A stretch of 38,641 nucleotides of DNA from Deltaproteobacteria bacterium RIFOXYD12_FULL_55_16 (GTDB lineage: Bacteria; Desulfobacterota; Desulfobulbia; Desulfobulbales; Desulfurivibrionaceae): positions 1 through 38,641 of the forward strand of contig MGTC01000045.1 of NCBI GenBank assembly GCA_001799255.1. Reading direction: 5' to 3'. Below, in pieces: positions 729 through 36,542 of this stretch (its first letter is position 1; each line of letters starts with the position of its first letter). Both the position numbers and the translations under genes were made by a program. The notes under the pieces were generated by a model. It was not told the origin of the DNA. It ran no database searches and was given only the letters and a program-made list of their open reading frames with translations.

Positions 729-1544
729 GTGTTTTTAAGAATCACGATATGTCTGTTCGCGGCAATGATCCCATTGGCCTGGGCGCCAGGCCAGGTCGGC
801 GCTGACCCCGGGCTTCTCGTCTCCGCCGCCGCCAGTCTGAGCGAGTCTTTCAAGGAGATCGGCAGGTCGTTTGCGGCGAAAAATCCAGGGGTCAAGGTTC
901 GCTTTAACTTTGCCGGCTCCGGCCCCCTTCTGCAGCAGATCGCCCAGGGGGCGCCGGTTGATCTTTTTGCCTCTGCCGACCAGGAGACCATGGACAAGGC
1001 GGAAAAGGGCGGTTTTCTGCTGCCGGGGAGCAGAGTGGATTTTACGCGAAATTCCCTGGTACTCATCACCCCTATGTACATGTCTGTGGTTAAGGGGCTT
1101 GGTGATCTGAAGTTGGGCCGGGTGCAAAAAATTGCTATCGGTAATCCTGCTTCGGTTCCCGCAGGGAGATATGCCAGGGCTGCCCTGGAGAGACAGGGGC
1201 TGTGGGAACCGCTGGCGTCCAAAGTTGTCAGGGGCATCTCGGTAAAACAGACGCTTGAGTATGTGCTGCGAGGTGAGGTGGAGGCTGGTTTTGTCTATGC
1301 AACGGATGCCGCAGGCACAAAAGACAAGGTGCGGGTTGTGGCTGAAATTCCCACTGCTGCCCCCATTGTTTATCCAGTGGCTGTTGTTGCGTCCAGCGCG
1401 AACAAGGAAAAGGCCCGGGCGTTTATCGGCTATCTGCGAAGCGCGGAGGCGCAGGCCATTTTGCTGAGGCATGGTTTTAAAGCTGAGTTGAGCAGCTTGT
1501 CTGCTCAAACGAAACTTATACCCTTTGGGTGTAAAGACCCATAA
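729..1544 (+). CDS. modA: Molybdate ABC transporter, periplasmic binding protein ModA
   Basis: Periplasmic substrate-binding protein that delivers molybdate to ModBC. It starts at GTG 729, preceded by GAGAGG seven bases upstream. Residues 1-25 form a signal peptide with a probable cut after VGA. The ModA hallmarks follow: AAASLSESF near residue 33, FNFAGSGPLLQQI with APVDLFASAD, IAIGNPASVPAGRYA, and GFVYATDA. The gene heads modABC-nifV. Oddity: the last 18 or so residues (from KAELSS) are encoded by a copy of the dispersed 54 bp repeat seen elsewhere in the window, so the normal C-terminus near RHGF has been extended. The stop at 1542-1544 lies 19 bases before the modB start. Tungstate is an alternative ligand that sequence alone cannot exclude. 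Confidence 0.93.
   Translation: MFLRITICLFAAMIPLAWAPGQVGADPGLLVSAAASLSESFKEIGRSFAAKNPGVKVRFNFAGSGPLLQQIAQGAPVDLFASADQETMDKAEKGGFLLPGSRVDFTRNSLVLITPMYMSVVKGLGDLKLGRVQKIAIGNPASVPAGRYARAALERQGLWEPLASKVVRGISVKQTLEYVLRGEVEAGFVYATDAAGTKDKVRVVAEIPTAAPIVYPVAVVASSANKEKARAFIGYLRSAEAQAILLRHGFKAELSSLSAQTKLIPFGCKDP
1479..1532 (+). repeat. Dispersed double-hairpin repeat, copy 1 (inside the 3' end of modA)
   Basis: It begins AAAGCTGAGTTGAGCAG and ends at CCCTTTGGGTG. It contains two small palindromes: TTGAGCAG/CTGCTCAA around a short loop, with one mismatched loop base relative to the other copies, and ACCC-TTT-GGGT. It is coding here, unlike every other copy, and supplies the C-terminal tail of ModA. Confidence 0.9.
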
Positions 1545-1563
1545 CCTTTCGCAGGAAGCGATC

Positions 1564-2232
1564 ATGCCCGACCTCACCCCCCTCTGGCTCACCCTGCGGA
1601 TCGCCTCCTGCGCGACCCTGCTGGCCTTTGCCTTTGCTGTGGGTTTCGCCTGGCTCACCGCCCGCTTCACCTTTTGGGGCAGGGATTTTCTTGACGCCAT
1701 TCTGACCCTGCCCCTGGTCATGCCGCCCACGGTTCTGGGTTATTATCTTATCGTGGTCTGGGGGAGAAACGGCTGGCTGGGCGGCTGGCTTCATGCCCAT
1801 CTCGGCTTGAGTTTGATGTTTACCTGGCAGGGAGCGGTGCTTGCCGCAACGGTGGTCTCTTTCCCTCTGCTTTTCAAGTCCGCCCGGGCCGCCTTTGAAG
1901 GGGTTTCCACCGAGTACGAGCAGGCGGCCCGCATCCTGGGCGACAACGAGCTGCGGGTATTTTTCAGGATCACCCTGCCTCTGGCGGCGAGAGGGCTGCT
2001 GGCCGGGACCATGCTTGCCTTTGCCCGGGCCATGGGGGATTTCGGCGCAACCCTGATGGTGGCGGGCAATATCGAGGGCAAGACCCAGACTGCGGCCATG
2101 GCGGTGTTTGACGCAGTTGCCGCCGGGGACTACACCCTGGCCAATACCCTGGTGGCTATCATGTCGGTGGTCTGCGTCACCATTCTCGTCATGACCAACA
2201 AGCTGGCAAGCAGAGGGAGGGCAGGGCGATGA
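1564..2232 (+). CDS. modB: Molybdate ABC transporter permease ModB
   Basis: Inner-membrane channel subunit of the molybdate importer, 222 residues. ATG 1564 is preferred over an in-frame ATG at 1525 because AGGAAGCG lies directly upstream and the N-terminus MPDLTPLWLTLRIA matches the family; the 1525 start would overlap modA. Five or so membrane segments are visible. The cytoplasmic EAA loop reads EYEQAARILGDNELRVFFRITLP followed by the AFARAMGDFGAT segment, the typical ModB coupling region. The stop overlaps the modC start by four bases (ATGA), implying translational coupling. Confidence 0.94.
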   Translation: MPDLTPLWLTLRIASCATLLAFAFAVGFAWLTARFTFWGRDFLDAILTLPLVMPPTVLGYYLIVVWGRNGWLGGWLHAHLGLSLMFTWQGAVLAATVVSFPLLFKSARAAFEGVSTEYEQAARILGDNELRVFFRITLPLAARGLLAGTMLAFARAMGDFGATLMVAGNIEGKTQTAAMAVFDAVAAGDYTLANTLVAIMSVVCVTILVMTNKLASRGRAGR

Positions 2233-2996
2233 GGCTTGAAGTGGATATTCGTAAAACCCTGCAATCCGGCGACCGGCGCTTTGAGCTGGAGGCTGTTTTC
2301 TCCTCGCAGGATGATCTCACCGTGATCTTTGGCGCCTCCGGCTCTGGCAAGAGCCTTACCATCCAGGCCATTGCCGGGCTGGTCACCCCAGAACAGGGCA
2401 GGATTACGGTGGGCGGCGAGACTCTTTTTGATGGCAGCCAGGGCCTCAATCTTCCGGCGCGCAAGCGGGGGGTGGGGTATCTCTTTCAGGACTATGCCCT
2501 GTTTCCCCATCTCACCGTGCGGGACAATATCGGTTATCCCCTGAAAAAGTCATGGCCTTTCCACCTGTTGCCCGATGATCGGCGGGAGGTGGCGGAGATC
2601 ATGGCCTCCTTTGAGATTACCCATCTTGCCGAAAGCTATCCGGTGGAGCTGTCCGGGGGCCAGAAGCAGAGGGTGGCCCTGGCCCGCGCCCTGATCACGA
2701 AGCCTTCCATCCTCCTGCTGGACGAGCCGTTCTCCGCGCTTGATTCCATGCTGCGCCATCGGATGCGGATGGAGCTGCTTGAGATCAGGCAACGGTTCGC
2801 GGTGCCCCTGGTGGTCATCACCCATGACCCGGCTGATGTGGAGGTCTTTGCTGATACCCTGGTTATTTTTGCCAATGGGCGAGTAAAGGAGGTCAGCGGT
2901 CGCAAGAATCTTGCCACGCCGGATGAGGACGACGGGTGGCGGGCAAAGGTTTGCTGGCGGGCGCAGTGGAAAAAGGAACGTTTGGCCGCCGCCTAG
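2229..2996 (+). CDS. modC: Molybdate ABC transporter ATP-binding protein ModC, short form
   Basis: Cytoplasmic ATPase driving molybdate import. Walker A is GASGSGKS (residues 35-42), a Q-loop FQDYALFPH follows, the signature is LSGGQKQR (141-148), Walker B is ILLLDEPF (161-168) and the switch His is in ITHDP. At 255 residues it contains only the nucleotide-binding domain. The C-terminal molybdate-binding MOP/TOBE domain of the roughly 350-residue E. coli ModC is absent, so any feedback inhibition by molybdate through that domain should be missing. It overlaps modB by four bases and is followed 34 nt later by nifV. Confidence 0.93.
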   Translation: MRLEVDIRKTLQSGDRRFELEAVFSSQDDLTVIFGASGSGKSLTIQAIAGLVTPEQGRITVGGETLFDGSQGLNLPARKRGVGYLFQDYALFPHLTVRDNIGYPLKKSWPFHLLPDDRREVAEIMASFEITHLAESYPVELSGGQKQRVALARALITKPSILLLDEPFSALDSMLRHRMRMELLEIRQRFAVPLVVITHDPADVEVFADTLVIFANGRVKEVSGRKNLATPDEDDGWRAKVCWRAQWKKERLAAA

Positions 2997-3030
2997 TTTG
3001 GCGACGGGATCAGTTAGGTGAGGTGACGTC

Positions 3031-4203
3031 ATGGAGCATGTGCGAGGTTTGGTGGACAGTACCCTGCGTGAGGGCAGTCAGGCGATGGGGGTTGCCTTCA
3101 GTCTGGAGCAGAAGGTGGAGATTGCTCGGCATCTCGTCAGGGTTGGGATCGAAGAGGTGGAGGTGGGTATCGCCTCGCCGCTGGATCGGGAGCTTCCCGT
3201 CTTGGTTGCCCGCTGTCGCAGGGAGGCAGGTCTGAGTCGTCTGGCCCTCTGGTGCCGCTGCCGGGAAGAGGATATTGCCTGCGCCCTGCGCCTGGCTCCG
3301 GAGGTGCTTTCTTTGTCCGTTCCGGTTTCTGATCGGCATATCGCCATCAAGTTGAATCTGGGGCGGGCAGCGGTGGTGGAGATGGTGGCCAGGGCGATTG
3401 CCCGGGTGCGGGCGGCGGTGCCCTATCTTTCTCTTGGTCTGGAGGATGCGACCAGGGCTGACCCGGAATTTTTGCGTGAGATCGTCACTGTTGCCGGGGC
3501 AAGCGGGGTGGATCGCATCCGGATCGCCGACACGGTGGGAGTGGCCACCCCCGGCGCCATGGTCGCTCTGGTCAGTGAGCTGCGCCGTAATTTTGCGGGG
3601 GAGATCGGGGTGCACATGCACAATGATTTCGGCATGGCCACAGCCAATGCCCTTGCCGCCCTGGAGGCTGGAGCTCATTGGGCCGATGTCACCGTGCTGG
3701 GCCTGGGCGAGCGGGCTGGAAACAGCCGGTTGGAAGAGGTGGCAGGTTATTTGGCCCTGCAAGGCGGCAGGTCTTATGAAACCACCCTGTTTAAAAGTCT
3801 GGCCCGGTTGGCCGCCGATTGCTCGGGGCGGAAGATAGAGGCTCATCAGCCGGTAATCGGTGCGGGGATCTTTGCCTGCGAAACCGGCCTGCACCTTGCC
3901 GGGCTCGTCAAAGATCCTCAGACCTATGAGCCCTATGAACCGATCCTGGTAGGGGCGCGGCGACAATTGTCTTATGGGGCCAAGGTCGGCAGGCAGGGCG
4001 TGGTCGAGCGTTTGCGGCAGTTGGGCCTGCACTGTCAAGAGGCGCAACTGGGCCGACTGGCCGAGGCCTTCCGGGGGCAGTGCCGGGACTTGGGCCGGCC
4101 GCTTTATGATCGGGAGGTGTTGCTACTGGTGGCCGAATGTGGAGGCCAGCCGGGGAGAGGTTACACGAACAGGCAATCCTCTCGCCAGGAGCAGTCCTCC
4201 TGA
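3031..4203 (+). CDS. nifV: Homocitrate synthase family protein, NifV-like
   Basis: A DRE-TIM metallolyase condensing acetyl-CoA with a 2-oxoacid; in NifV the product is homocitrate, the organic ligand of the nitrogenase FeMo cofactor. Family marks are DSTLREGSQAMGVAF (residues 9-23; the usual D-T-L-R-D is E here), the metal-binding HMHNDF (195-200), and GLGERAGNSRLEEV (224-237), which is strongly NifV/HCS-like. A ribosome site, GAGGTG, precedes ATG 3031. Placement 34 nt after modC supports a role with molybdenum nitrogenase. Alternatives in the same superfamily are Re-citrate synthase, isopropylmalate synthase or citramalate synthase. At 390 residues it lacks the LeuA allosteric domain. Its 3' end overlaps the opposing small gene by 43 bases. 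Confidence 0.75.
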   Translation: MEHVRGLVDSTLREGSQAMGVAFSLEQKVEIARHLVRVGIEEVEVGIASPLDRELPVLVARCRREAGLSRLALWCRCREEDIACALRLAPEVLSLSVPVSDRHIAIKLNLGRAAVVEMVARAIARVRAAVPYLSLGLEDATRADPEFLREIVTVAGASGVDRIRIADTVGVATPGAMVALVSELRRNFAGEIGVHMHNDFGMATANALAALEAGAHWADVTVLGLGERAGNSRLEEVAGYLALQGGRSYETTLFKSLARLAADCSGRKIEAHQPVIGAGIFACETGLHLAGLVKDPQTYEPYEPILVGARRQLSYGAKVGRQGVVERLRQLGLHCQEAQLGRLAEAFRGQCRDLGRPLYDREVLLLVAECGGQPGRGYTNRQSSRQEQSS

Positions 4204-4343
4204 CTGCAATGTTCCAGCGCCGAGCCGAAACAGGGGAAGTTGCCTTCTTTTTCCTGGATGGCGCGCACAAGCTCCTCTTTTTTCATCTTGCCTGCTTTGA
4301 GGCCAAGCTCTTTCGCCTTTGCCTTGATGTCGATCATTTTCAT
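4161..4343 (-). CDS. Small SAP-like/cysteine-motif protein (60 aa)
   Basis: Start chosen at ATG 4343 because GGAGG lies six bases upstream; an in-frame upstream ATG at 4397 has no such site. Residues 1-33 resemble a SAP or Rho-N helix-extension-helix (MIDIKAKAKELGLKAGKMKK EEL), a fold that often binds nucleic acid. The last 25 residues hold four cysteines (38, 46, 51, 57) with a Trp-Arg-Glu-Asp motif between the last two, a possible zinc or redox site. The gene converges on nifV and its last 43 bases overlap the nifV 3' end. Function unknown; DNA or RNA binding is an inference. Confidence 0.75.
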   Translation of the reverse strand: MKMIDIKAKAKELGLKAGKMKKEELVRAIQEKEGNFPCFGSALEHCSQEDCSWREDCLFV

Positions 4344-4477
4344 GGGAAACCTCCGTGGATGTTTGGTTGTCGCAGGGGATTTGTAGCCCTTTACCAAGGG
4401 TTGCCTGTCCTAGTAACAACCGTATCGACTCTTAGCTCATAGTATACAGAATTTACGGGGTGAAATAAAAAAAGTTG

Positions 4478-4518
4478 AAAGTCGAGGGTGTTTTCTCAAC
4501 CCTCAACTTTCCTTTTTT
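4478..4518. terminator. Bidirectional terminator-like hairpin between the SAP-like gene and the thioredoxin-like gene
   Basis: AAAGTCGAGGGT (4478-4489) pairs with ACCCTCAACTTT (4499-4510), one mismatch and a 9 nt loop. TTTTTT follows at 4513-4518 on the plus strand, and a T-rich run (complement of 4466-4473) follows on the minus strand. It can end the thioredoxin-like transcript. The stem is made of the same AAAGTTGA/GGGTTGA heptamer units found in tandem at 8061-8131. Confidence 0.7.
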
Positions 4519-4531
4519 CATTCTTCATTTT

Positions 4532-5029
4532 TCACTTTCCAATCTCTTCCCCCACCCACTCCTCGACCTCAGCAGGGGATGGCATGCGCCCGGCGCATTT
4601 CACCGTGCCGTTGATGATCAGGGCTGGGGTTTTTGTTACCCCGAAGCGCCAGATCTCATCAGGATCGTGTACCGATTCCATGTCTGCGGCCAGAGCGGAT
4701 TTCTGCAGGGCTGCAAAGAGCATGGTGCTGAGTTTGTTGCAGGTCACACAGCCGGAGCCCAACACCCGGATGGTGAGCCTCTCCGGCTCGGCCCCAGGTA
4801 TCCCCTGGCGTCGGCGGTATTCGCCGCGCAAGGCCTCGCGGTAGATCGGCTCCGCGTTTACGGGAACATAATTTCCCCTGGCAACGGCGGTAAAAAGAAA
4901 ATCTACCGCCGATTCTTCCGGCATCTTTTCGCTCAGGGCCTTGTTTATGGCCTGGTCAAGGCCAATCAGCCCGATATTGGCCGCGCCGATCCGGATGGTT
5001 CTGGGCGCTGGTCTGTCCTGGTTTTCCAT
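4532..5029 (-). CDS. Thioredoxin-like protein with an extra N-terminal domain
   Basis: 165 residues from ATG 5029, chosen because AGGATCTCC precedes it; a TTG at 5059 overlapping the upstream stop (TTGA) is the alternative. Residues 85-165 form a compact thioredoxin fold of the MTH895/redox-active-disulfide type, with GSGCVTCNKL (CxxC at 94/97) and the cis-Pro segment VTKTPALIINGTVKCAG. Residues 10-72 form a separate helical domain starting IRIGAANIGLIGLDQAI that I do not recognise by name. It lies directly downstream of the EndoQ homologue. A role as a dithiol/disulfide carrier is inferred; the partner could be the reductase-like protein at 6652. Confidence 0.75.
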   Translation of the reverse strand: MENQDRPAPRTIRIGAANIGLIGLDQAINKALSEKMPEESAVDFLFTAVARGNYVPVNAEPIYREALRGEYRRRQGIPGAEPERLTIRVLGSGCVTCNKLSTMLFAALQKSALAADMESVHDPDEIWRFGVTKTPALIINGTVKCAGRMPSPAEVEEWVGEEIGK

Positions 5030-5055
5030 GGAGATCCTGTCTGGGGCAAGTTGTT

Positions 5056-6369
5056 TCAAGAGTTAGCGGATTGCTGGGCTTTTTTCCCGGTAAACAGGCG
5101 GATCTGGTTTGCCAGCTCTCGCCGTTCATTTTCGGCAAAGACCTGGATCATCCCGAATTCACCATCGTAGCCAGGGATGCGGATGACCCTGCCCGTGCGG
5201 AGGCGGGTGATCGCCTCGCCCAGCACCGGCGACATCTGGTTGATTTCCTCCACCGGCGTGTTGAGCAGCAGATTGAACTCCGAACCGAAGCGGGCAATGA
5301 CTTTTGCGTACAGGGCCATCACCCCCTTGCTGGCAGGGCCGGCGCCGAGAATCTCGCTTAAGACCTCGGGCAGAGGGATAAGGCTGTGTACTGCGGGCGA
5401 GCCGGGCGGGTAGTACGGCTCAGTCCGTTCGGCCAGTTCCATGATCCGGTGCAGGACCCCCACGGTGAGGGGCTTGCCGCAGACCGGGCAGATGGCCCCG
5501 ATCTTTCTGGTTTCGGCGGGCTCAAGGCAGACCTGGCAGTTCCGGTGGCCATCGGCATGATATTTCCCTTCTTCCGGGTAGAATTCTATCGTGGCGGCAA
5601 AGGCGTCGGTCAGGGGATTTTTCAGGGCTTGCCGCAGAGCGAAGAAGCTGAAACCGGTGTTGAAGATATTGGCCTCCCGGCCCAGCTTGCCAGGAGAGTG
5701 GCAATCGGAATTGGAGATCAGGGCAAAGCGATCCAGGGCCGGGATGAGCCGATTCATGGCCGGGTCAGAGGAGAGGCCGGTTTCCAGGGCGAAGACGTGC
5801 GGGCTGAGATCGCCGTAACATTCCTCAATGGTGTTAAAGCCGGAGCGGGAGCCGAACAGGGAGAACCACGGCGTCCAGATGTGGGCCGGAACCAGAAACC
5901 CCTCCGGCGCTTTTTCCAGCAGGATTTCAAGCAGATCGCGGGAGTCAAGGCCCAGGATGGGGCGACCATCGGACTCGAGGTTGCCGAGGCCGGCCAGGAC
6001 GCGGTTTATCCGCTCCGCCGAGGCGAAATCGGGGACGTAGAGCAGATTGTGAACCTTGTGCACCGCACCGTGGCGTTTGTAGATACTGCTGATCTCGGCG
6101 CTGAGCAGGAAGCGGCTGGGAAGAGCTTCCGGCGTAACCTGCGGCAGGGCCGGGGGGATCGCCTCATTTTTGAGTCTGAAAAATCCTGGTTCGGCAGGGA
6201 CGAGCTGTTCCTTGAGCTGACTGAACCAGCCGGGATGGGTGAAGTCGCCGCTGCCGAGCAGGTGAATGCCCTTGACCCTGGCCCAGGCGGCAAGGCCCTG
6301 CAGGGTGCCGACCTTGCTGGTCGCCCGGGAGAAAGGGGAGTGGAGGTGGAGGTCTGCTATGTAGCGCAT
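5056..6369 (-). CDS. PHP-domain nuclease, endonuclease Q (EndoQ) homologue
   Basis: 437 residues. EndoQ cuts DNA 5' of deaminated bases (uracil, hypoxanthine, xanthine) and abasic sites and is best known from Thermococcales and some Bacillota. The PHP metal ligands are all present: ADLHLHS (H8, H10), GDFTHPGW (D42, H45), SAEIS (E92), H104/H107, PAHIWTPWFS (H163), and SNSDCHS (D222, H224). A zinc finger follows, C278-x2-C281 and C294-x2-C297, then a helical C-terminal domain. That order (PHP, Cys4, C-terminal domain) is the EndoQ architecture. No clear PCNA-binding box is seen, as expected outside archaea. It probably shares a transcript with the thioredoxin-like gene. Biochemical activity is inferred from homology. 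Confidence 0.85.
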   Translation of the reverse strand: MRYIADLHLHSPFSRATSKVGTLQGLAAWARVKGIHLLGSGDFTHPGWFSQLKEQLVPAEPGFFRLKNEAIPPALPQVTPEALPSRFLLSAEISSIYKRHGAVHKVHNLLYVPDFASAERINRVLAGLGNLESDGRPILGLDSRDLLEILLEKAPEGFLVPAHIWTPWFSLFGSRSGFNTIEECYGDLSPHVFALETGLSSDPAMNRLIPALDRFALISNSDCHSPGKLGREANIFNTGFSFFALRQALKNPLTDAFAATIEFYPEEGKYHADGHRNCQVCLEPAETRKIGAICPVCGKPLTVGVLHRIMELAERTEPYYPPGSPAVHSLIPLPEVLSEILGAGPASKGVMALYAKVIARFGSEFNLLLNTPVEEINQMSPVLGEAITRLRTGRVIRIPGYDGEFGMIQVFAENERRELANQIRLFTGKKAQQSANS

Positions 6370-6409
6370 TTTTCTGTTGTCGTGAAAAAAGGAGAAACCG
6401 AGGGGAACT

Positions 6410-6517
6410 AAAGCTGAGTTGAGCAGCTTGCCTGCTCAAACGAAACTTATACCCTCTGGGTGCAAAGCTGAGTTGAGCAGCTTGCCTGCTCAAACGAAAC
6501 TTATGCCCTTTGGGTAT
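6410..6517 (+). repeat. Dispersed double-hairpin repeat, copies 2 and 3 in direct tandem
   Basis: Two units with a period of exactly 54 bases (6410-6463 and 6464-6517). Each begins AAAGCTGAGTTGAGCAGC and contains the TTGAGCAG-CTTGC-CTGCTCAA stem (8 bp, 5 nt loop). The first ends ACCCTCTGGGT, the second GCCCTTTGGGTAT. They lie in the divergent gap between the EndoQ homologue and the reductase-like gene. Confidence 0.95.
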
Positions 6518-6601
6518 GAAGAATTTTACACAGATTTCGTTTTCCTGTCCATGTCGTATTCAGCTGCGGAAATGGATGGCCTTCCCTGGAAAAAATCGCT
6601 A

Positions 6602-6607: not shown

Positions 6608-6651
6608 GTGCACTGCCTTGGGAATGTTTTTAAAAAAAAGGGGGACAGGAA

Positions 6652-7575: not shown

Positions 7576-7576
7576 G

Positions 7577-8068
7577 GTGTCTGCTCTTTTACCGAGGGAA
7601 TCCCCAGAGCAGTATATGGCCGTTGCCCTTGCCGAGGCCCGGCTTGCGGCGGCGCGGGGCGAGGTGCCCATCGGCGCGGCGCTGGTAGACGAGGCTGGAC
7701 AGATCCTGGCCCAAAACGGCAACCGCACCATCGAGCTGTGCGATCCCGGAGCGCATGCGGAAATGCTGGTGTTGCGCGAGGCGGGCCGGTTGCGGGGTAA
7801 TTACCGGTTGCCCCGCACCACCCTCTATGTTACCCTTGAGCCCTGTGTGATGTGCGCGGGCGCCTTGGTTCACGCTCGGGTGAGCCGTTTGGTTTACGGG
7901 GCTATCGATCCCAAGGCCGGCGGGGTTGTCTCCCTTTTTCAGGTCGGGCAGGATCCACGGCTTAATCATCTGCTGGCTGTGGAAGGCGGCCTGCTCGCGG
8001 CGGAAAGCGCTGCCCTGTTGCGGGATTTTTTCCGGGAGAGAAGGACGGGGTGGGGAATGAAAAGTTGA
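7577..8068 (+). CDS. tadA: tRNA-specific adenosine deaminase TadA
   Basis: Deaminates A34 to inosine in tRNA-Arg(ACG). Motifs of the zinc-dependent CDA fold are HAEM (H60, E62 proton shuttle) and PCVMC (C90, C93), with PIGAALV near residue 31 and the RVSRLVYGAIDPKAGG core. GTG 7577 is chosen as start because it follows the previous stop by one base and gives the usual N-terminal helix before EVPIGA; ATG 7616 would shorten that helix and lies 13 residues downstream. No strong ribosome site is seen, consistent with coupling to the upstream gene. 163 residues, normal for TadA. Confidence 0.92.
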   Translation: MSALLPRESPEQYMAVALAEARLAAARGEVPIGAALVDEAGQILAQNGNRTIELCDPGAHAEMLVLREAGRLRGNYRLPRTTLYVTLEPCVMCAGALVHARVSRLVYGAIDPKAGGVVSLFQVGQDPRLNHLLAVEGGLLAAESAALLRDFFRERRTGWGMKS

Positions 8069-8131
8069 AAGTTAAAAGTTAAAAATTAAAAGTTGAAAGT
8101 TGAAAGTTGAGGGTTGAGGGTTGAGGGTTGA
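8061..8131 (+). repeat. Tandem heptamer repeat (AAAGTTG / GGGTTGA)
   Basis: About ten degenerate seven-base units run from AAAGTTGAAAGTTAAAAG to GGGTTGAGGGTTGA. The first unit touches the end of tadA (stop 8068), so the last two codons (Lys-Ser) lie inside it. The same units form the arms of the terminator at 4478-4510. Confidence 0.85.
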
Positions 8132-8171
8132 TTGGTAGGGGCGGCTTCAGTCGCGACAGGGTGTTTGCAAC

Positions 8172-8263: not shown

Positions 8264-8275
8264 TTCTTTCCTGAT

Positions 8276-8324
8276 AAAGCTGAGTTGAGCAGCTTGCCTG
8301 CTCAAACGAAACTTATACCCTTTT
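8276..8324 (+). repeat. Dispersed double-hairpin repeat, copy 4 (3'-truncated)
   Basis: AAAGCTGAGTTGAGCAGC through ACTTATACCC is identical to copies 2 and 3, but the final GGGT arm is lost (reads CCCTTTTAAGTG), so only the first hairpin can form. It lies between tRNA-Ser and fcl. Confidence 0.92.
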
Positions 8325-8377
8325 AAGTGTTCACTGGGCTGTTGTGGTCAGCGCAAAGGAGTTGAAGGGAAGTCTGG

Positions 8378-29163: not shown

Positions 29164-29667
29164 TTATTGCACGACAAATTCCGTGAAATAAATACCCTTG
29201 ATATGGTCTGGCCGCATGATCTCATTGAAACGTTCCAGCAACTCATCTCTGACCCGGATCTTGCCTTCCGGGGTCATGATTTCTTCAAAGTCAAGGCTGG
29301 TGAGCATCATGATGACCATATCCCGCAGCTTGGGCGCCGCCTTGGTGGCCTTGTCCACGGCCTCCTTGTTTTCAAGCTCAAGTTCGATCTTGAGCTTGAG
29401 ATAGCGTTTGCCTTTCGGGTCTGCCAGATTGACGACAAAGGGCTCCATGACCAGCATTTCTCCGATCACCGGCGCCTCTTCCTTTTTTACCTCTTCATGG
29501 CCCGCAGCCTCTTCCGCCGCTGGTTTGGGGGCCAGGAAGGTCTTGTAGGCGAAAAAGCCGCCGCCGCCGAGGGCAAGAATACCGACGCCAAGGATGATGA
29601 AAAGAAGCATCTTGGATTTCTTTTCCGGAACCTGCTCTGTTGCCTGTGGGTCTTTTTCTGCAGCCAT
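29164..29667 (-). CDS. fliL: Flagellar basal-body protein FliL
   Basis: 167 residues, one membrane segment at about 19-45 (KMLLFIILGVGILALGGGGFFAY), then a periplasmic domain with EPFVVNLADPKGKRYLKLKIELEL and KLRDMVIMMLTSLDFEEI, the FliL signature. It supports stator function. GGGAGATCC precedes the ATG. First gene of the run, 74 bases below the sigma-54 promoter. Confidence 0.95.
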   Translation of the reverse strand: MAAEKDPQATEQVPEKKSKMLLFIILGVGILALGGGGFFAYKTFLAPKPAAEEAAGHEEVKKEEAPVIGEMLVMEPFVVNLADPKGKRYLKLKIELELENKEAVDKATKAAPKLRDMVIMMLTSLDFEEIMTPEGKIRVRDELLERFNEIMRPDHIKGIYFTEFVVQ

Positions 29668-29756: not shown

Positions 29757-30104
29757 CAAGGTTCTTCCTGTTTGTAACAGTATATATAAATTATCGGTAA
29801 TTCAATGTATTTTTGGGAAATATTCAGCAAGGGCGGTATTGTTCTGGAAGTGTTGCCTGGCTATTTTTTGTCATAATTTTGACTTCAAGTCGATGAGGTG
29901 TCAAAAAAACACCGGGAAGGAAGGAATGCCTGCCGGGCAGATAAGGCGCGGGAAAGTATGCTTTACTTTCCCGCCTGAAAAATTTATCGTATTAGTATAT
30001 GGATACTCATCAGCCCCTTATAGCCAAAGGGCGTAAGTTTTGTTTGAGCAGGCAGACTGCTCAACTCAGCTTTATGGGGCGCAGTCATAAAGAGAGGAAC
30101 GGTT
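29757..30104. other. Divergent intergenic region fliL / fabL
   Basis: AT-rich around 29760-29885. A clear hairpin lies at 29948-29974 (GCGGGAAAGTA, 5 nt loop, TACTTTCCCGC, no T-run) and repeat copy 5 at 30023-30073. I see no ORF with coding features and no riboswitch of a family I recognise. Confidence 0.7.
30023..30073 (-). repeat. Dispersed double-hairpin repeat, copy 5 (minus orientation)
   Basis: Reads GCCAAAGGGCGTAAGTTT then TGAGCAGGCAGACTGCTCA and ACTCAGCTTT on the plus strand, the reverse complement of copies 1-4 with several substitutions. The GAGCAG/CTGCTC stem is conserved. It lies 31 bases before the fabL ATG, between its likely promoter and ribosome site. Confidence 0.9.
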
Positions 30105-30857
30105 ATGTACAAGCTGCGGGGAAAAGTGGGCCTGGTAACTGGCAGTTCACGGGGGATCGGCAAGGCGATCGCTCTGCGGCTTGCCGAAAACGGGGTTGAT
30201 CTGGTGGTGAACTATGTGCGTCACCGGCAGGATGCGGAGGCCACCGCCCGGCTGATCGAAGAAAAAGGGGCGCGTTGTCTGGTGGTCAAGGCCAATGTGG
30301 CTAATGATGAAGATCTGCAGGCCATGTTCGCCCTGATTAGAAGCGAGTTCGGCCAGCTTGATTTTCTTATCAGCAATGCCGCCTCCGGCGTTTTGAAACC
30401 GGCGCTTGAGCTGAGCAGCCGCCACTGGAACTGGGCCATGGAGATCAATGCCCGGGCGCTGCTTTCTCTTACCCAGCAGGCGGTGCCGCTCATGGTCAAG
30501 GGAGCCAGGATCATCGCGGTTTCCAGCATGGGGGCGGTGCGGGCCGTGGAGAATTATACGGCGGTTGGGGCCTCCAAGGCGGCGCTTGAATCGCTGGTTC
30601 GCCATCTGGCTGTGGAGCTGGGGCCGATGGGGATCAATGTCAATACCATCAGCGCCGGAGCCGTGGATACCGAGGCCCTGAAAAAATTCCCCAACCGGGA
30701 ACAGATCCTCGCGGGCGCCCTGCAACGGACACCTATGGGGCGACTCACCCTCCCTGAGGATGTGGCGGATGTCGCCCTGTTTTTATGCAGTGATCTGGCC
30801 GCCATGATCCAGGGGCAGACCCTTGTCGTGGATGGTGGCTATTCCATCAGGGCCTGA
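30105..30857 (+). CDS. fabL: Enoyl-[acyl-carrier-protein] reductase III, FabL type
   Basis: SDR of 250 residues catalysing the last step of fatty-acid elongation with NADPH. The cofactor site is TGSSRGIG (12-19), followed by NAASGVLKP, and the catalytic pair is Y151-x6-K158 (YTAVGASK), the spacing of enoyl reductases rather than the Y-x3-K of FabG. The segments AVDTEALKKFPNRE and AAMIQGQTLVVDGG closely follow Bacillus FabL. A GAGAGGA ribosome site precedes the ATG. Followed nine bases later by maf. A less specific SDR oxidoreductase is the fallback call. Confidence 0.85.
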   Translation: MYKLRGKVGLVTGSSRGIGKAIALRLAENGVDLVVNYVRHRQDAEATARLIEEKGARCLVVKANVANDEDLQAMFALIRSEFGQLDFLISNAASGVLKPALELSSRHWNWAMEINARALLSLTQQAVPLMVKGARIIAVSSMGAVRAVENYTAVGASKAALESLVRHLAVELGPMGINVNTISAGAVDTEALKKFPNREQILAGALQRTPMGRLTLPEDVADVALFLCSDLAAMIQGQTLVVDGGYSIRA

Positions 30858-30866
30858 GCGAGATTT

Positions 30867-31466
30867 ATGGAAGCCTTTCAAACCCAGGAGCGGCTTATCC
30901 TGGCCTCTGCTTCGCCCAGGCGGCGTGATTTTCTTACCGATTTGGGCCTGGTCTTTGAGGTAAGGGTGACAGATATCGACGAGACCTTGCAGCCCGGCGA
31001 GCAGCCTGCCGACTTTGTCGCCCGCCTGGCCCAGGAAAAGGCCCAGACCGTTGCCCAGCCTGACGCCTGGGTGCTGGCCGCCGATACCGTGGTGGTGGTG
31101 GATGGGGAGATTCTTGGCAAACCAGGCGATGAGGAGCAGGCCTGCGCCATGCTCATGCGGCTCTCTGGCCGCTGGCATGAGGTGTGGACCGGATTCTCTC
31201 TTTGGCGGCAGGCGACAGGGGAAATGTATACGAAAACCGTCTGCACCAAGGTCAGGTTCCTGCCGCTTGCGCCGGAGTTGTGCCGGGCATACGTCCGCAC
31301 CGGAGAACCTCTGGACAAGGCGGGGGCTTACGGGATTCAGGGCAAGGGTTGTTTCTTGGTTCCGGAGATCAGCGGTTCCTATACCAATGTGGTTGGCCTG
31401 CCTATGGCCGAGGTTCTCGAGGCCTTATTGCACCACAAGGTGATTGCGCCGCAGGAAGGTGGATGA
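30867..31466 (+). CDS. maf: Maf family nucleoside triphosphate pyrophosphatase
   Basis: House-cleaning enzyme that hydrolyses non-canonical or pyrimidine NTPs to NMPs. 199 residues with SASPRRRDFL (14-23), the AADTVVVVDGEILGKP core and DKAGAYGIQGKGC. It lies between fabL and the EAL/HDOD gene with four bases to the latter. YhdE (dTTP/UTP) and YceF (m7GTP) types cannot be separated with certainty; the DTVV and AGAYGIQG motifs favour the YhdE type. Confidence 0.93.
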   Translation: MEAFQTQERLILASASPRRRDFLTDLGLVFEVRVTDIDETLQPGEQPADFVARLAQEKAQTVAQPDAWVLAADTVVVVDGEILGKPGDEEQACAMLMRLSGRWHEVWTGFSLWRQATGEMYTKTVCTKVRFLPLAPELCRAYVRTGEPLDKAGAYGIQGKGCFLVPEISGSYTNVVGLPMAEVLEALLHHKVIAPQEGG

Positions 31467-31470
31467 GAAA

Positions 31471-32718
31471 ATGAAAACAGCCATGGATACCTCAGAGCCG
31501 AACATCTTCGTTGCCCGTCAACCTATCTTCAAAAGGAACAAGGAGGTTTTTGCTTACGAGCTGCTTTTTCGTTCCGGCCTGACAAATTACTTCGACCCCT
31601 TGCAGGACGGGGAAGAGGCCACCTCCAAGGTTATCACCAACAGCTTTCTCCTGATCGGTATTGCCACCATTACTGGAGGGAAAAGGGCCTTCATCAATTT
31701 CAATGAAGAGATGCTGCTAAAGGGCTATCCCTCTCTTTTTCCCAAAGAAATCGCTGTGATTGAGGTGTTGGAGACGGTAGGGGTCACGCCTGAGGTCGTG
31801 CAGGCCTGCGAGAAGCTGGTTGGGGCAGGGTATGTTCTGGCTCTTGATGATTTTCTTTATGAAGATCGTTTTTTGCCGCTGATCAAGCTGGCCAGGATCA
31901 TCAAGTTTGACATTCGCCTGATGAGCTTTGCCGAACTTGAGCGGCAGGTCAAGATTGTCAGTCGTTATGAGGTGAAGCTGCTGGCGGAAAAAATCGAAAC
32001 CATGGCAGAGTTTGAGGCCACCAAGAAGCTGGGCTTTGATCTGTTTCAGGGGTATTTTTTTAGTCGGCCCCAGATTGTGGAGGGGCGGGATATCCCTGGT
32101 TCAAAGCTCCATTACCTTCAGGTGCTGAAAGTCATTCAGGATGAGGATTACGACTTTGCCGAGCTGTCCAAATTTGTCAGCCGGGATGTTTCCCTGGCCT
32201 ACAAACTGCTCAAATATGCGAACTCAGCCTATTTTGCCAGACGGCAGAAGCTGGAGAGCATTGAGATGGCCGTGGCCATGCTGGGGCAGCTTACCTTGAG
32301 GAAATGGCTGTCGCTGATGATGCTTTCCTACCTCGCCGATGACAAGCCCTCCGAGCTGTTGAGCCTGGCTGCTTTTCGGGGCAGCTTTTGCGAACTGATC
32401 GCCGATCAGCTTCTGGGCCGACGCAAGGAGGCGGGGAAGTTTCACACGGTGGGGATGTTCTCCTTGCTCCCCGCCATGCTTGACAAGGCCATGGCGGATA
32501 TCCTGCCGGAGTTGGCCCTGCCCGAAGAGATTCAGGAGGCGTTGCTCGCCGTGGCCGCAACCCCTCTTTCCTTCACCCTTGCCCTGGTTATGGCCTACGA
32601 ACGTGGCGACTGGGACAAGACCATCGAACTGGGAGAAAAACTTGCAGTCAATCTTGAATCCCTGCCCTTGCTCTACGAACAGGCCATTGAAATCGCCCAG
32701 GTACAGCTTACTGATTGA
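31471..32718 (+). CDS. EAL/HDOD two-domain signalling protein (YuxH family)
   Basis: 415 residues from ATG 31471, chosen because GGTGGATGAG precedes it; an upstream TTG at 31444 would overlap maf. The EAL-like domain (about 10-195) is degenerate: the signature is YELLFRS where active enzymes have EALxR, and DDFLYED replaces the DDFGTGYSS-type loop, so c-di-GMP hydrolysis is unlikely. The HDOD domain (about 205-400) carries SRDVSLAYKLLKYANSAYF and lacks the HD-GYP catalytic motif. Such proteins act as c-di-GMP or motility-linked signalling scaffolds. Third gene of the fabL-maf unit. Confidence 0.88.
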   Translation: MKTAMDTSEPNIFVARQPIFKRNKEVFAYELLFRSGLTNYFDPLQDGEEATSKVITNSFLLIGIATITGGKRAFINFNEEMLLKGYPSLFPKEIAVIEVLETVGVTPEVVQACEKLVGAGYVLALDDFLYEDRFLPLIKLARIIKFDIRLMSFAELERQVKIVSRYEVKLLAEKIETMAEFEATKKLGFDLFQGYFFSRPQIVEGRDIPGSKLHYLQVLKVIQDEDYDFAELSKFVSRDVSLAYKLLKYANSAYFARRQKLESIEMAVAMLGQLTLRKWLSLMMLSYLADDKPSELLSLAAFRGSFCELIADQLLGRRKEAGKFHTVGMFSLLPAMLDKAMADILPELALPEEIQEALLAVAATPLSFTLALVMAYERGDWDKTIELGEKLAVNLESLPLLYEQAIEIAQVQLTD

Positions 32719-32729
32719 TCCCGTTCATC

Positions 32730-32880
32730 GTAACTATTCAGCAGCACCATCTCTGCTTTGTCGGCACTACTGCCGACGATTGACAGTCATCGGCCTGCTC
32801 ATGTGCAATAGCACACTTTGCAGACCTCTGGATTTTATGCCCCTTTGGGGTACGCATCTGCGGCACTGCTGAATAGTTAC
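32730..32880. repeat. 151 bp inverted-repeat-bounded structured element
   Basis: The ends GTAACTATTCAGCAG (32730-32744) and CTGCTGAATAGTTAC (32866-32880) are perfect 15 bp inverted repeats. Inside are GTCGGCA-CTAC-TGCCGAC (32760-32777), TGTGC-AATA-GCACA (32802-32815) and a GGATTTTATGCCCC-TTT-GGGG hairpin near 32830-32850, which resembles a module in repeats 6 and 7. There is no ORF and no transposase. It fills the convergent gap between the EAL/HDOD gene and glyS. Confidence 0.85.
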
Positions 32881-32908
32881 CTTCCGTGGTTTTTGTCCCA
32901 TTGCGGCA

Positions 32909-34987
32909 TCAAGCTGAATAGTTACCGGTCATCTTTGAAAAATCGCCGATCTGCAGAAAGAGCCGGGCGATGGCGGTCAGCAGATTCAGGCGGTTGGCGC
33001 GCACCTGCTCATCCTCCACCATGACCATGACTTCGGTGAAAAAGCTGTCAACCGGTTCCTTCATCTTGAGGATCACGGCCATGGCTTTTTCGTACTCGCT
33101 GGCCTCAAGCAGGGGGGTAGCCTCCAGGTGGGCAGCCAGATAGGCCGCCTGGAGTTTTTGTTCAGCAGCCTCGCTGAATAATGCCGGTTGCACCGAGGTT
33201 TCCTGGTTATCCTTGATGATATTGATTACCCGTTTGAAGGCCCCGGCCAGGATGGCAAAGGCTTCCTGGCTGCTGATGGCCATCAGGGCGTTGATCCGGC
33301 GCTGGCAGTCAAGCGGATCATCGAAAGAGACCGAGGTGACCGCTTCCACTGCCTCGGCGGGGATGCCCTGGCCGGTGAGATCGTTGCTGAAACGGCCCTT
33401 GATGAATTCGAGTACGTTGCGGTGGGCCTCGGCCTGGGGAATGGTAAGCTTGTCGCCATAGAGGGAGAGCGCCTCCTCCACGAACTCGGCCAGCGAGAGG
33501 CTGAAGCCCATGGCCTTGATGATATGGAGCAGCCCCAGCGACAGGCGGCGCAGGCCGAAGGGATCGGTGGTGCCGGTGGGTACCTGGCCGATGCCGAAGC
33601 AGCCGGTGATGGAGTCAAGTCTGTCGGCGATGCCGACCAGCGCCCCAGGGATTGAGGAGGGCAATTGGCCTCCGGCCCTGACTGGCAGGTAATGTTCCCG
33701 GATGGCGGTGGCAACCTCCGGCGTTTCTCCGTTGAGCAGGGCGTAATCCTTGCCGATTGCTCCCTGGAGAGTGGGAAATTCCCCAACCATGTCGGTCAAC
33801 AGGTCAGCCTTGGCCAGGCGGGCGGCCCGTTCGGTCTGGGCCAGGTGTTTAGGGGCAAGCCTTCTGGCCAGCAGCCCGGCCAGGGCGGTAACCCTCCTGG
33901 TCTTGTCAAGCATGGTTCCCAGTTTGTGCTGGAAGATGACGCCCGAGAGGTCTTCGACCCGATCCTCCAGGGAGCGGCGCTGGTCTTCCTTGAAGAAGAA
34001 AAAAGCATCTTCCAGCCGTGCCCGGATTACCCGCTGGTGGCCATCGGCGGCAAGCCTGGCATCCCTGGTGTCCGTGTTGTTCACCGCGATGAAATGGGGC
34101 ATGAGTTTGCCTGCGCCATCAACTACGGCAAAGTATTTCTGGTGTTCCCGCATCGAGGTGATCAATACCTCGCGGGGCAGGGCGAGAAAGCGTTCCTCAA
34201 AGGCGCCGCAAAGGGCAAAAGGTTTTTCCACCAGGTTGCAGACCGTGTCTACCAGTTCGTCATCCGCAAGAATTGTTCCGCCCGCCTGCCGGGCCGCCCT
34301 GGTGATCTCGGCAAGAACCGCAGCGCGGCGTTCCTGGGGGTCTACCATGACCTGGGCTGTGCGCAGGGTGTCGACATAGTCGGTAAAACAGGCGGCGGGA
34401 AAAGGCCCGCTGGCCATGAAACGGTGGCCAAGGGTGGTGTTGCCGCTGGTGATGGCATCCATTGAGAAGGAGACCGTCTTGCCGCCATAGACGGCCAGCA
34501 GCCACTGGATCGGGCGGGCAAAGCTGGCGCGACCTGTCCCCCAGCGCATGGATTTCGGGAAATTGAGGCTGGCGACTACCTCCGGCAGCAGATCGGCCAG
34601 GAGTTCTGTGGTTTGCCGACCAATCTCTTCGACGCGCACCATGAGGTACTCGCCCTTTGGTGTTGCTGCGATCTGCAGGGCCTCAACCGCGATCCCTCTG
34701 GTTTTGGCAAAGCCGATGGCTGCCTGAGTAGGCTGGCCATTCTGGTCAAAAGCCGCTTTTTTGGGGGGGCCGAGAATCTCTTCTTTTCGATCCGGTTGGC
34801 GAGCGGCCAGGCCGCTGACCGAGATGGCAAGCCGCCGTGGGGTAGCGGCGGTGCGCAGACTGGAATAGGGGAGGGCCAGGGCGGTGAGCCGGTCGCCAAG
34901 GATTTTTTCCAGTTGGGAAAGAGCCGGCATGATATAGCCAGCCGGGATTTCTTCGGTGCCGATTTCAAAGAGTAGTTCGTGGCGCAT
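32909..34987 (-). CDS. glyS: Glycyl-tRNA synthetase beta subunit
   Basis: Beta chain of the bacterial alpha2-beta2 enzyme, 692 residues, carrying tRNA recognition and a non-catalytic HD domain. Starts MRHELLFEIGTEEIPAGYI, the family hallmark, with KSMRWGTGRASFARPIQW and the C-terminal anticodon-binding DALRxR-like domain (TEVMVMVEDEQVRANRLNLL). Its partner glyQ, usually immediately upstream, is not next to it: the upstream neighbour is a FolE2-family gene. Its C-terminal GNYSA is encoded by a repeat arm. No strong ribosome site precedes the ATG. Confidence 0.96.
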   Translation of the reverse strand: MRHELLFEIGTEEIPAGYIMPALSQLEKILGDRLTALALPYSSLRTAATPRRLAISVSGLAARQPDRKEEILGPPKKAAFDQNGQPTQAAIGFAKTRGIAVEALQIAATPKGEYLMVRVEEIGRQTTELLADLLPEVVASLNFPKSMRWGTGRASFARPIQWLLAVYGGKTVSFSMDAITSGNTTLGHRFMASGPFPAACFTDYVDTLRTAQVMVDPQERRAAVLAEITRAARQAGGTILADDELVDTVCNLVEKPFALCGAFEERFLALPREVLITSMREHQKYFAVVDGAGKLMPHFIAVNNTDTRDARLAADGHQRVIRARLEDAFFFFKEDQRRSLEDRVEDLSGVIFQHKLGTMLDKTRRVTALAGLLARRLAPKHLAQTERAARLAKADLLTDMVGEFPTLQGAIGKDYALLNGETPEVATAIREHYLPVRAGGQLPSSIPGALVGIADRLDSITGCFGIGQVPTGTTDPFGLRRLSLGLLHIIKAMGFSLSLAEFVEEALSLYGDKLTIPQAEAHRNVLEFIKGRFSNDLTGQGIPAEAVEAVTSVSFDDPLDCQRRINALMAISSQEAFAILAGAFKRVINIIKDNQETSVQPALFSEAAEQKLQAAYLAAHLEATPLLEASEYEKAMAVILKMKEPVDSFFTEVMVMVEDEQVRANRLNLLTAIARLFLQIGDFSKMTGNYSA
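32913..32925 (-). repeat. Third arm of the inverted-repeat element, inside the 3' end of glyS
   Basis: GCTGAATAGTTAC, 13 bases identical to the right arm at 32868-32880, in direct orientation 45 bases further on. It encodes most of the last residues of GlyS (GNYSA). Confidence 0.85.
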
Positions 34988-35036
34988 GGGGGCAGTTTCT
35001 CGCGATATTTTTTAACAGTTGGCTTGAGGGAGAGAC

Positions 35037-35807
35037 TCAGGATACGGGCATCTTGTTGTTGGCCGACCATTCCAGAGAGGCAAAGGTATTGTACCCTTGC
35101 GAAAGATTTTCCACCAGGACGGAAAACCAGGCGATGGCCGGTTGGTTTTCCAGCTTGCGGCCCAGGGCCGTGGTAATGCTTTCCACGGAAAGGGTGTATT
35201 CCGTGGCGCAGGTTTTGCTTGTGGGCCAGCAGAGATCGTGTGAGGTTACCTCTTCCACCAGTTGGATGATATCCTCAATCCAGATGAAATGCCTGAAACG
35301 CAGGCGGATGGTGGCTCGGCCCCAGTGGCCGAGGGAGCGCGGCAGGCCCTGCCCGGTCTGGGAGGGAAGCGGCGGGGAAATGGGCACCTGGATTTCCAGG
35401 GTGAGATCGTCGGTTTTATCCAGTGAGCCATGCATGGTGCAGCGGTATTCATTCATGCCCACCGATTGCGCCTGCCCGGAAGATTTCTTTAAAAAGTAGG
35501 GGAAGGTGATTTCCAGGTGGGCGGCTTCCGCCTGAAGCCGGGCCTTCATCTCCTCGAGAATGCGATGAAAACTTTTCAGGTTTATCTCACCCTGAAACCG
35601 GTTGAGGATCTCCACGAACCGGCTCATGTGGGTGCCCTTGAACTGGTGGGGCAGATTGACGTACATGTTGAAGGTGGCCACAGTTTGCTGGGTCTTTCTG
35701 GCTTTGTCCCGGACTGTTACCGGGTAGGAGATGTTCTTGACCCCGACCTTTTTGATGTTGATCCGGCGGTAATCAGGCTGGCCTTGAATGTCTTTCATGT
35801 CGCTCAT
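35037..35807 (-). CDS. FolE2-family (GTP cyclohydrolase IB-like) protein lacking the conserved metal-site residues
   Basis: 256 residues. Family sequence is clear in the first half: INIKKVGVKNISYPVTVRDK, TVATFNMYVNLPHQFKGTHMSRFVEILN, and VGMNEYRCTMHGSL. The catalytic segment normally CPCSK-EIS-x-YGAHNQR is here PPLPSQTGQGLPRSLGH, aligning without gaps so that both the conserved Cys and the His are replaced. The late His of the HNHNAYA segment is also gone (QGYNTFASLEW). It may be a folate-independent or non-enzymatic paralogue, or bind metal differently through the Cys in DLCWPTSKTC. The canonical reaction, GTP to dihydroneopterin triphosphate, is therefore doubtful. Co-directional with glyS, 49 bases apart. 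Confidence 0.8.
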   Translation of the reverse strand: MSDMKDIQGQPDYRRINIKKVGVKNISYPVTVRDKARKTQQTVATFNMYVNLPHQFKGTHMSRFVEILNRFQGEINLKSFHRILEEMKARLQAEAAHLEITFPYFLKKSSGQAQSVGMNEYRCTMHGSLDKTDDLTLEIQVPISPPLPSQTGQGLPRSLGHWGRATIRLRFRHFIWIEDIIQLVEEVTSHDLCWPTSKTCATEYTLSVESITTALGRKLENQPAIAWFSVLVENLSQGYNTFASLEWSANNKMPVS

Positions 35808-35866
35808 TGGCCCCGGTCGCCCAAGAGTTGCCCGTCTGCCCCTTATTCCCTTGGCGGCCCTGTATT

Positions 35867-36217
35867 TCAGGGCAGATGTTTCTTCACTGCGGCCTTGAGC
35901 TCGTCCAAATTGGATGATTTGACGATGTATTCATCGGAGGCCCAGGTGGACAGATTCTGTTTGAATTCCTGATAGGCGGAGCTTAGAATCACCGGCAGGG
36001 CGGGATTTGTCTCCTTGATCTGGCGCAGGACGTCGATTCCGTTGATGCCGGGCATATTGATGTCGAGGATGATCAGATCCGGCAGAATGACCTTCAATTG
36101 AGCCAGGGCTTCTTCTCCAGAGAGAGCCGAGTGAACCTCGTAGCCTTCGTCTTCCAGTTCTTCGCGGTACAGGAGATGGATGCTGTCTTCGTCGTCAACA
36201 AGCAGTATTTTTTTCAT
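35867..36217 (-). CDS. Single-domain response regulator
   Basis: 116 residues from ATG 36217, chosen for the AGGGGAATCC site; an in-frame upstream start at 36244 has none. Receiver fold: acidic residues at 8-10, phospho-acceptor D52 in LIILDINMPGINGIDVLRQI, switch Ser in VILSSAYQEF and Lys in EYIVKSS. No output domain. No cognate kinase is adjacent. It differs from the CheY at 18247 in pocket and surface residues, so a different circuit is likely. Confidence 0.9.
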   Translation of the reverse strand: MKKILLVDDEDSIHLLYREELEDEGYEVHSALSGEEALAQLKVILPDLIILDINMPGINGIDVLRQIKETNPALPVILSSAYQEFKQNLSTWASDEYIVKSSNLDELKAAVKKHLP

Positions 36218-36263
36218 GGATTCCCCTTGACGGACTTGTAACAATCAAAAAACGTAACGGCAA

Positions 36264-36325
36264 AACGCAGAGACGCGAAGATAAGGCGTTTAACTAAAAG
36301 GGTTAAAACTTTGCGCCTTTGCGTT
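36264..36325. repeat. Imperfect inverted repeat upstream of the response regulator
   Basis: AACGCAGAGACGC at the left and TTTGCGCCTTTGCGTT at the right are partly self-complementary; the latter shares CTTTGCGCCTT with the fliM-fliN hairpin. Confidence 0.45.
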
Positions 36326-36345
36326 AAAAAAACGAGTCGTTATTA

Positions 36346-36542
36346 CACCCCAAGGGTATAAGTTTCGTTTGCACCCTGAAGGGCATAAAATCCGGCGAGC
36401 TGCTCAACTCAGCTTTGCACCCAAAGGGTATAAGTTTCGTTTGCACCCTGAAGGGCATAAAATCCGGCAAGCTGCTCAACTCAGCTTTTCACCCAAAGGG
36501 TATAAGTTTCGTTTGAGCAGGCGAGCTGCTCAACTCAGCTTT
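36346..36542 (-). repeat. Array of three double-hairpin repeats, copies 6-8
   Basis: Units at 36346-36416, 36418-36488 and 36490-36542. The third is the plain 53-base form. The first two are 71 bases because the GAGCAG arm is replaced by CACCCTGAAGGGCATAAAATCCGG, an extra hairpin module. All share CTGCTCAACTCAGCTTT and AAGGGTATAAGTTTCGTTTG. The array lies between galT (stop 36549) and the response regulator, filling the gene-free gap 36218-36548 together with the inverted repeat at 36264-36325. Confidence 0.95.

Follow-up and report, generated by a model that had tools for sequence, protein, structure and literature searches.

In the excerpts of the literature on which this and all later comparisons draw, transposons of the IS200/IS605 family have a tetra- or pentanucleotide as target, insert on its 3′ side and have neither terminal inverted repeats (TIRs) nor a target duplication (PMC7290912). 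IS605 abuts TTTAA and IS606 abuts TTAT, and the same holds for their ends-only mini copies (PMC2993954). The PATEs of Haloquadratum walsbyi are too short to encode a transposase, lack TIRs and duplications, carry near-terminal palindromes and follow a 5′ targeting sequence of 4–5 bp; their 52-bp forms, which consist of the termini only, may be mobile (PMC3119063). Two super-families of REP sequences are marked by the tags GTAG and CGTC (PMC3733652). Here we report a dispersed, gene-less element of 54 nt in a 38,641-nt stretch of DNA (the window), which is contig C45 of the 2.46-Mb draft genome (90 contigs) of Deltaproteobacteria bacterium RIFOXYD12_FULL_55_16. The element carries two hairpins and is mobile, and it is probably a PATE-like (mini-IS605-like) non-autonomous single-strand transposon that is mobilised in trans by a Y1 HUH transposase.

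Insertion sites and boundaries

Target statistics were compiled from 144 first-in-array copies, with 28 tandem ones set aside, and from 143 last copies. On the 5′ side of the first copies, T occupies position −2 in 140 of 144 and A or T occupies position −3 in 115 of 144. The last copies end in NAA in 122 of 143 cases, N being C in 59, T in 53 and A in 10. For 16 selected filled sites, the two flanks were then joined without the element and searched in eight relatives. Together with 20 further stretches, the loci obtained yielded 49 orthologous rows that span the junction at nine of the 16 sites, after removal of one filled source row. The net length difference was 0 in 25 of the 49 rows and ranged from −11 to +24 in the others. 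The element thus adds a net 54 nt to orthologous sites, as a rule exactly, and follows a host (A/T)TAA; both the target preference and the net gain are firm. A dispersed repeat family had been proposed in the earlier note, and its mobility is borne out by these filled and empty orthologous sites as well as by copy numbers that range from 0 to 128 within one genus.

The boundaries of the element are fixed to within a triplet. TAA immediately precedes the junction in 16 of the 49 rows and does so for one or more orthologs at seven of the nine sites; the 3′ triplet of the copy itself is found there in three rows. At sites 2 and 14, which are the cleanest, the downstream flank comes directly after TAA in the empty orthologs, whereas the filled copies terminate with CAA and AAA, respectively; NAA is therefore element-borne at these sites and the element totals 54 nt. 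Joints within arrays read mostly CAA or AAA. On the strength of these joints, the 16-to-3 count and the two cleanest sites, we favour a host TAA followed by an element that brings its own NAA, and the last triplet likely belongs to the element. The same three observations disfavour a duplication of TAA as the boundary model.

The candidates that were dropped include stop-codon targeting, which is ruled out by the lack of stop-codon enrichment among the copies (7/79) compared with control TAA sites (139/1573). The motif GTTGAGC fits the R″ box of an integron attC site, and this candidate was set aside because the junction lies at TAA.

Some sites are filled at the same base in several species, namely site 1 (G008, G009 and G017) and site 13 (G011 and G014). 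One of the species belongs to another genus, and most relatives examined are empty at these positions. Repeated targeting, precise loss or transfer may account for this pattern. A second dispersed palindromic repeat of about 130 nt, with ends like TTGATGGACTCGTAACAACT, is represented at positions 36260-36340 of the window and has 43 matches in its genome. Several 54-nt copies lie inside this ~130-nt family, which provides paralogous filled and empty sites.

Copy number and distribution

The genus was scanned with a 17-nt left-end pattern at no more than one mismatch, and the reversed-pattern control gave zero matches in every genome. The counts are 128 for the window's genome, 126 for G011, 78 for G013, 22 for G017, 18 for G012, 11 for G009, 7 for G014 and 0–4 for the other ten genomes. 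The element is present in 15 of the 17 genomes of the genus, the window's own included, with no copies in two. Across the order, a stricter two-part pattern without mismatches was matched in 44 of its 257 genomes, representing 17 of 69 genera, in very uneven numbers with a maximum of 133.

A scan of named genome contigs returned at least 104 matching stretches, 80 of them with titles. The matches listed include the Gammaproteobacteria Candidatus Methylobacter oryzae, M. tundripaludum and other Methylobacter, symbionts of Lamellibrachia, Escarpia and Taylorina, and many Desulfobulbales-type drafts. The two-part pattern was matched 156 times in Ca. M. oryzae, 10 times in the L. barhami symbiont, 5 times in the Escarpia spicata symbiont and twice in M. 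tundripaludum, with a control of zero. Since Methylobacter belongs to the Gammaproteobacteria and Desulfobulbales to the Thermodesulfobacteriota, near-identical copies occur in two phyla, in sulfur- and methane-cycling bacteria. In a gammaproteobacterial sample of 30 loci hand-picked from the 80 titled stretches, 37 of 38 copies are preceded by TAA and 21 of 38 end with GGGTATAA, so that the 3′ end of the latter equals the target itself. Searches of phage and plasmid collections gave no match to the element. One viral contig of IMG/VR (L476, 4,264 bp) carries a copy.

Being short and dispersed, the repeat might be a miniature element (MITE) of a DDE transposon, one of the families to which the earlier note had likened it, or else an artefact of assembly, as several contigs of one draft that begin near a unit could suggest. 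Either origin is exceedingly improbable. AGCTGAG and GGGTGNAA, the two ends, do not form inverted repeats, and the 5′ triplet mostly differs from the 3′ one (TAA against C, T or A followed by AA); with no TIR and no true target duplication, the element is not a classical MITE. As for an artefact, the element occurs in independent assemblies that include a 2.8-Mb contig (G010) and a 4.1-Mb scaffold (L388), well beyond both the window and any single assembly. In the draft concerned (G052), the element lies no more than about 130 bases from the first base of seven contigs; it may therefore itself break short-read assemblies.

Hairpins and length variants

The left hairpin begins 7 nt from the start of the element and has a stem of 8 bp, TTGAGCAG/CTGCTCAA. 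The right hairpin is formed by ACCC/GGGT, extends to as many as eight pairs in the Methylobacter form and lies 0–4 nt from the end. The 3′ end, (G/A)(T/C/A)AA, resembles the target. In other genomes the left hairpin is built from different arms, such as TTGAGCCG/CGGCTCAA, TTGGGCCG/CGGCCCAA, TTGAGTCG/CGACTCAA and TTGGCCCG/CGGGCCAA, among further versions. We examined covariation of the left stem in standard-length matches that were hand-copied from the listed rows of 11 genomes, a set in which related copies are non-independent. In 92 distinct 21-nt arms, 90% of the cells were paired, and a two-sided Watson-Crick change was found in 59 cells compared to a shuffle mean of 18.5; none of 2000 shuffles reached 59, and pairings slid by 1–2 positions gave 4–8. 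The number of extra pair types was less striking (17 compared to 13.4, attained by 36 of 2000 shuffles). Compensatory change therefore maintains the left hairpin. In the right stem, the three C-G pairs are Watson-Crick in 82–90% of 230 distinct units.

Longer versions of 72 nt and of about 160–190 nt have the same ends as the 54-nt form and several different interiors, none of which contains a gene; in the 72-nt form the fold differs and the usual 3′ arm of the left hairpin is missing. Within 3.45 Mb of fetched sequence we sought a right end within 260 nt of each of 353 distinct left ends. A right end was found for 328, and the longest element measured 189 nt. Among the other 25 left ends, some are decayed, N-masked, cut by a contig end or chance matches; for five of the 25 a right end lies 1.7–16 kb away and is part of another copy. 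Eighteen right ends had no left end nearby. The element is thus too short for a transposase, and no gene lies within any copy. Fragments of a third repeat (GTCGGCACTGCTGCCGACGA... and GGATTTTATGCCCCTTTGGGG), found at positions 32740-32870 of the window and also in L002, L069 and L110, occur inside longer versions of the element, which suggests that these are mosaic repeats.

Arrays are head-to-tail with a period of 54 nt. The distance between the first and second copies of an array is 7.4, compared with 8.6 when the partners are permuted (p 0.0008). The mean is higher for adjacent copies (7.2) than for pairs of first copies taken from separate arrays (6.7), although a rank test finds the adjacent distances to be smaller at p 0.02. 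Local duplication is thus only partly supported.

The strong covariation of the hairpin and the near-identity of the sequence across phyla could also be read as the mark of a selected RNA or DNA signal, such as a terminator, an mRNA stabiliser or a protein-binding site, with mobility as a secondary property; the first unit of the array at 36.4 kb contains one terminator-like match. Such matches number 1 against 0.7 expected, and a tRNA is the sole Rfam match in the window. Congeners vary from 0 to 128 copies, the strict pattern is unmatched in 213 of the 257 genomes of the order, and the copies are not enriched at stop codons, all of which makes a primary signalling role very improbable. The element probably has no dedicated host function, the hairpins in transcripts and the in-frame peptides, as in ModA (see below), being incidental.

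Proposed mechanism and search for a mover

The ends, the 5′ target and the mode of insertion together point to Y1 single-strand transposition in trans, and we consider this enzyme class rather likely. A Y1 transposase of the HUH type, encoded elsewhere or since lost, would bind both hairpins on one DNA strand, make its cuts behind TAA and behind the terminal NAA, and then rejoin the strand on the 3′ side of another (A/T)TAA. Since the 3′ end of the element resembles the target, head-to-tail arrays of 54-nt period would arise by further insertion at that end, through a circle joint or by local duplication.

Y1 transposases (PF01797) are present in the genus and in eight genomes that were reached via the named loci. 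We inspected 34 and 30 Y1 loci from these two sets, which amount to 62 distinct loci as two of them repeat G012 loci, and which comprise RAYT and IS200 types; four of the 34 are from the window's own genome, two of these falling below the family cut-off. The ends of IS200-type elements in G018, G008, G021, G022 and other genomes were read and are different. Loose matches to the left end only, with up to five mismatches, were found at seven Y1 loci (5 + 2) and were judged to be due to chance.

Several observations weigh against the proposed transposition by a Y1 enzyme or against the boundaries on which it rests. None of the 62 distinct Y1 loci carries the ends of the element, further Y1 matches lying outside this set and TnpB-only elements not searched. 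Ca. M. oryzae, with its ~156 copies, has a single Y1 match, in a frame of 141 aa, and no Y1 type is common to all high-copy genomes, as judged by eye and without a tree. A lagging-strand bias is expected of IS608-like elements, but orientation relative to GC skew was unbiased: in 20-kb windows the G-rich strand carried 71 of 132 arrays (p 0.43) and 49 of the 88 with clear skew, and local skew gave 47 of 86 copies; the GC skew at 20 points of G010 shows that such windows are informative. At site 8, all eight orthologs are 3 nt longer than the joined flanks, so that the net gain there was 51 nt or a small host deletion came afterwards. C31:78797 resembles site 8 when compared to G014, its terminal CAA seemingly belonging to the host. 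At site 1, five of six orthologs have TCA, a triplet that also stands at the 3′ end of the copies in G009 and G017, and no ortholog of sites 5 and 6 has TAA. Two other boundary models are less favoured. One, a 51-nt element lying between TAA and a host NAA, suits site 8 and C31:78797; the other, in which the 5′ TAA travels with the element, suits several family-B paralogues as well as site 1 of G009 and G017.

These same results lend some weight to a mover of another class, whether linked to TnpB/IS1341, a Y2 HUH enzyme, a site-specific recombinase with exchange inside the AA of NAA, or an undescribed enzyme, although we regard this as rather improbable. The lack of a matching Y1 element, the one short Y1 frame in the ~156-copy strain and the absence of strand bias all fit such a mover; a crossover inside NAA would allow the host-like 3′ triplets at sites 1, 8 and C31:78797, and rolling-circle events could yield head-to-tail arrays. 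Yet the lack of TIRs, the 5′ TAA and the hairpins at the ends are the outcome of Y1 single-strand transposition, the near-constant 5′ TAA is not in itself explained by a crossover inside NAA, and a Y1 mover may be lost or unassembled. In a bolder version of events, which we consider unlikely, a promiscuous 54-nt element that crosses phyla from Desulfobulbales to Methylococcales and tubeworm symbionts would be moved by a transposase or recombinase other than a recognisable Y1 protein, an undescribed TAA-specific mover of hairpin DNA.

The earlier note had also likened the unit to REP/BIME repeats, which would be moved in trans by a RAYT (TnpA-REP), and had called for a search for RAYT genes near full copies. 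The repeat is short, structured, present in high copy and mostly outside genes, and RAYTs need not adjoin their repeats. Full-length RAYT-type genes do occur in the genus, including one in the window's genome (C20), which by eye has a close relative in the high-copy genome G013. However, a related gene is found in the zero-copy genome G019, neither of the two Y1 loci that were read in G011 (of three; 126 copies) is of the C20 type, and the unit is absent from every RAYT locus examined. The consensus ends carry neither the GTAG nor the CGTC tag, so the unit is not a REP in the sense of the available excerpt of PMC3733652. Its two unlike hairpins stand in direct order, its arrays are head-to-tail at 54 nt and its target is (A/T)TAA, which leaves REP/BIME membership quite unlikely.

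Copies in the window and their gene context

All eight copies announced for the window in both orientations were recovered, at most a few bases away from the earlier positions. The announced size of 53–54 bp holds for six of them (about 54 nt; the right end of one is decayed) and not for the other two, which measure 72 nt. The limits of the unit needed adjustment: its proper start is AGCTGAG, the preceding TAA being most likely host target, and its end is NAA after GGGTG. A 39-nt core has five matches in the window at no more than three mismatches, and none in 100 dinucleotide shuffles.

The first copy (1481-1534, plus strand; target TAA 1478-1480) had been placed, like the others, in a gene gap; it lies inside the modA-type open reading frame (ORF) at 729-1544, close to the 3′ end, of which residues 29-251 of 271 match SBP_bac_11. 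It forms an in-frame insertion of 18 codons that adds AELSSLSAQTKLIPFGCK ahead of the final DP. A head-to-tail pair on the plus strand follows, with its leading unit at 6412-6465 (target CTAA 6408-6411) and its trailing unit at 6466-6519, the right end of which has drifted to GGGTATGA. The pair is absent from the orthologous stretch in G011, G014, G021, G022 and G023. It lies upstream of a minus-strand ORF at 5056-6369 that had been labelled EndoQ; this label is not confirmed, because Pfam gave the ORF no match.

The unit at 8278-8331 (plus strand, 3′ limit approximate) lies 3′ of tRNA-Ser(CGA) and has an intact left hairpin and a right hairpin decayed to CCCTTTTAAGTG. A run of AAAGTTG-like repeats occupies 8047-8137, immediately upstream of the same tRNA gene. 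The minus-strand copy at 30018-30071 ends with GGCTATAA, has the target ATAA at 30072-30075 and is flanked by a fliL-type gene (29164-29667, minus strand) and a fabL-type gene (30105-30857, plus strand). Directly 3′ of a galT-type gene (36549-37550, minus strand), the array at 36343-36540 contains three minus-strand units: a 54-nt element as unit 1, at the 5′ side of that strand (36487-36540), and two 72-nt variants as the middle unit (36415-36486) and unit 3 (36343-36414). In the variants, the ends are unchanged and CCGGATTTTATGCCCTTCAGGGTGCAA replaces the 3′ arm of the left hairpin.

Comparison with known systems

The titles, abstract starts and passages of the literature searched contain no description of the element, most subscription papers being outside reach, and the 20 papers listed, out of 54 matched by a full-text search for its core letters, appear unrelated by title. 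If it is indeed moved by a Y1 enzyme, it is about the smallest substrate proposed for a single-strand transposase, with the 52-bp PATEs as precedent. Natural empty sites set limits at the level of the triplet and many stem variants are available, and the rules of recognition that would then be concerned (target, guide and hairpins) are therefore testable with 54-mers. Given near-identical copies in two phyla, and bursts within individual species, one may ask by what route a 54-mer without a gene passes from one phylum to another and what moves it; the ~156-copy strain with its one short Y1 frame is the place to seek the mover. The element can also enter a protein in frame, as in ModA, and its possible effect on draft assemblies deserves attention.

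IS200/IS605 ends resemble those described here in their subterminal hairpins, in insertion 3′ of the target and in the lack of TIRs and duplication (PMC8266576, PMC7290912); unlike in that family, no tnpA lies between the ends, and neither a strand bias nor guide sequences were found. REP, BIME and REPIN sequences are likewise short structured repeats that are probably moved in trans (PMC3733652, PMC8266576), but as far as these excerpts describe them they differ in having alternating rather than head-to-tail arrays and GTAG or CGTC tags, and RAYT loci were seen here without the repeat. The mini-IS605 and mini-IS606 of Helicobacter pylori share the ends-only structure and a left end placed at the target; they differ by retaining 100–150 bp of each end of a known insertion sequence and by their numbers, eight and six copies, respectively (PMC2993954). 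PATEs are the closest match. The unit has their testable features, with no TIR, palindromes near the ends, no duplication, a 5′ target and no gene. It resembles the 52-bp HqIRS46, which consists of termini only, and the ISHwa23-derived form in its size near 52 bp, in lacking a gene and in being apparently mobile, and its start lies farther from the first palindrome than its end from the last one, as in PATEs (PMC3119063). Unlike PATEs, it has no IS605-type parent with matching ends among the 62 Y1 loci (TnpB-only elements were not searched), its two palindromes are mutually unlike, its near-identical copies occur in two phyla, and it reaches up to ~156 copies and forms head-to-tail arrays of 54 nt.

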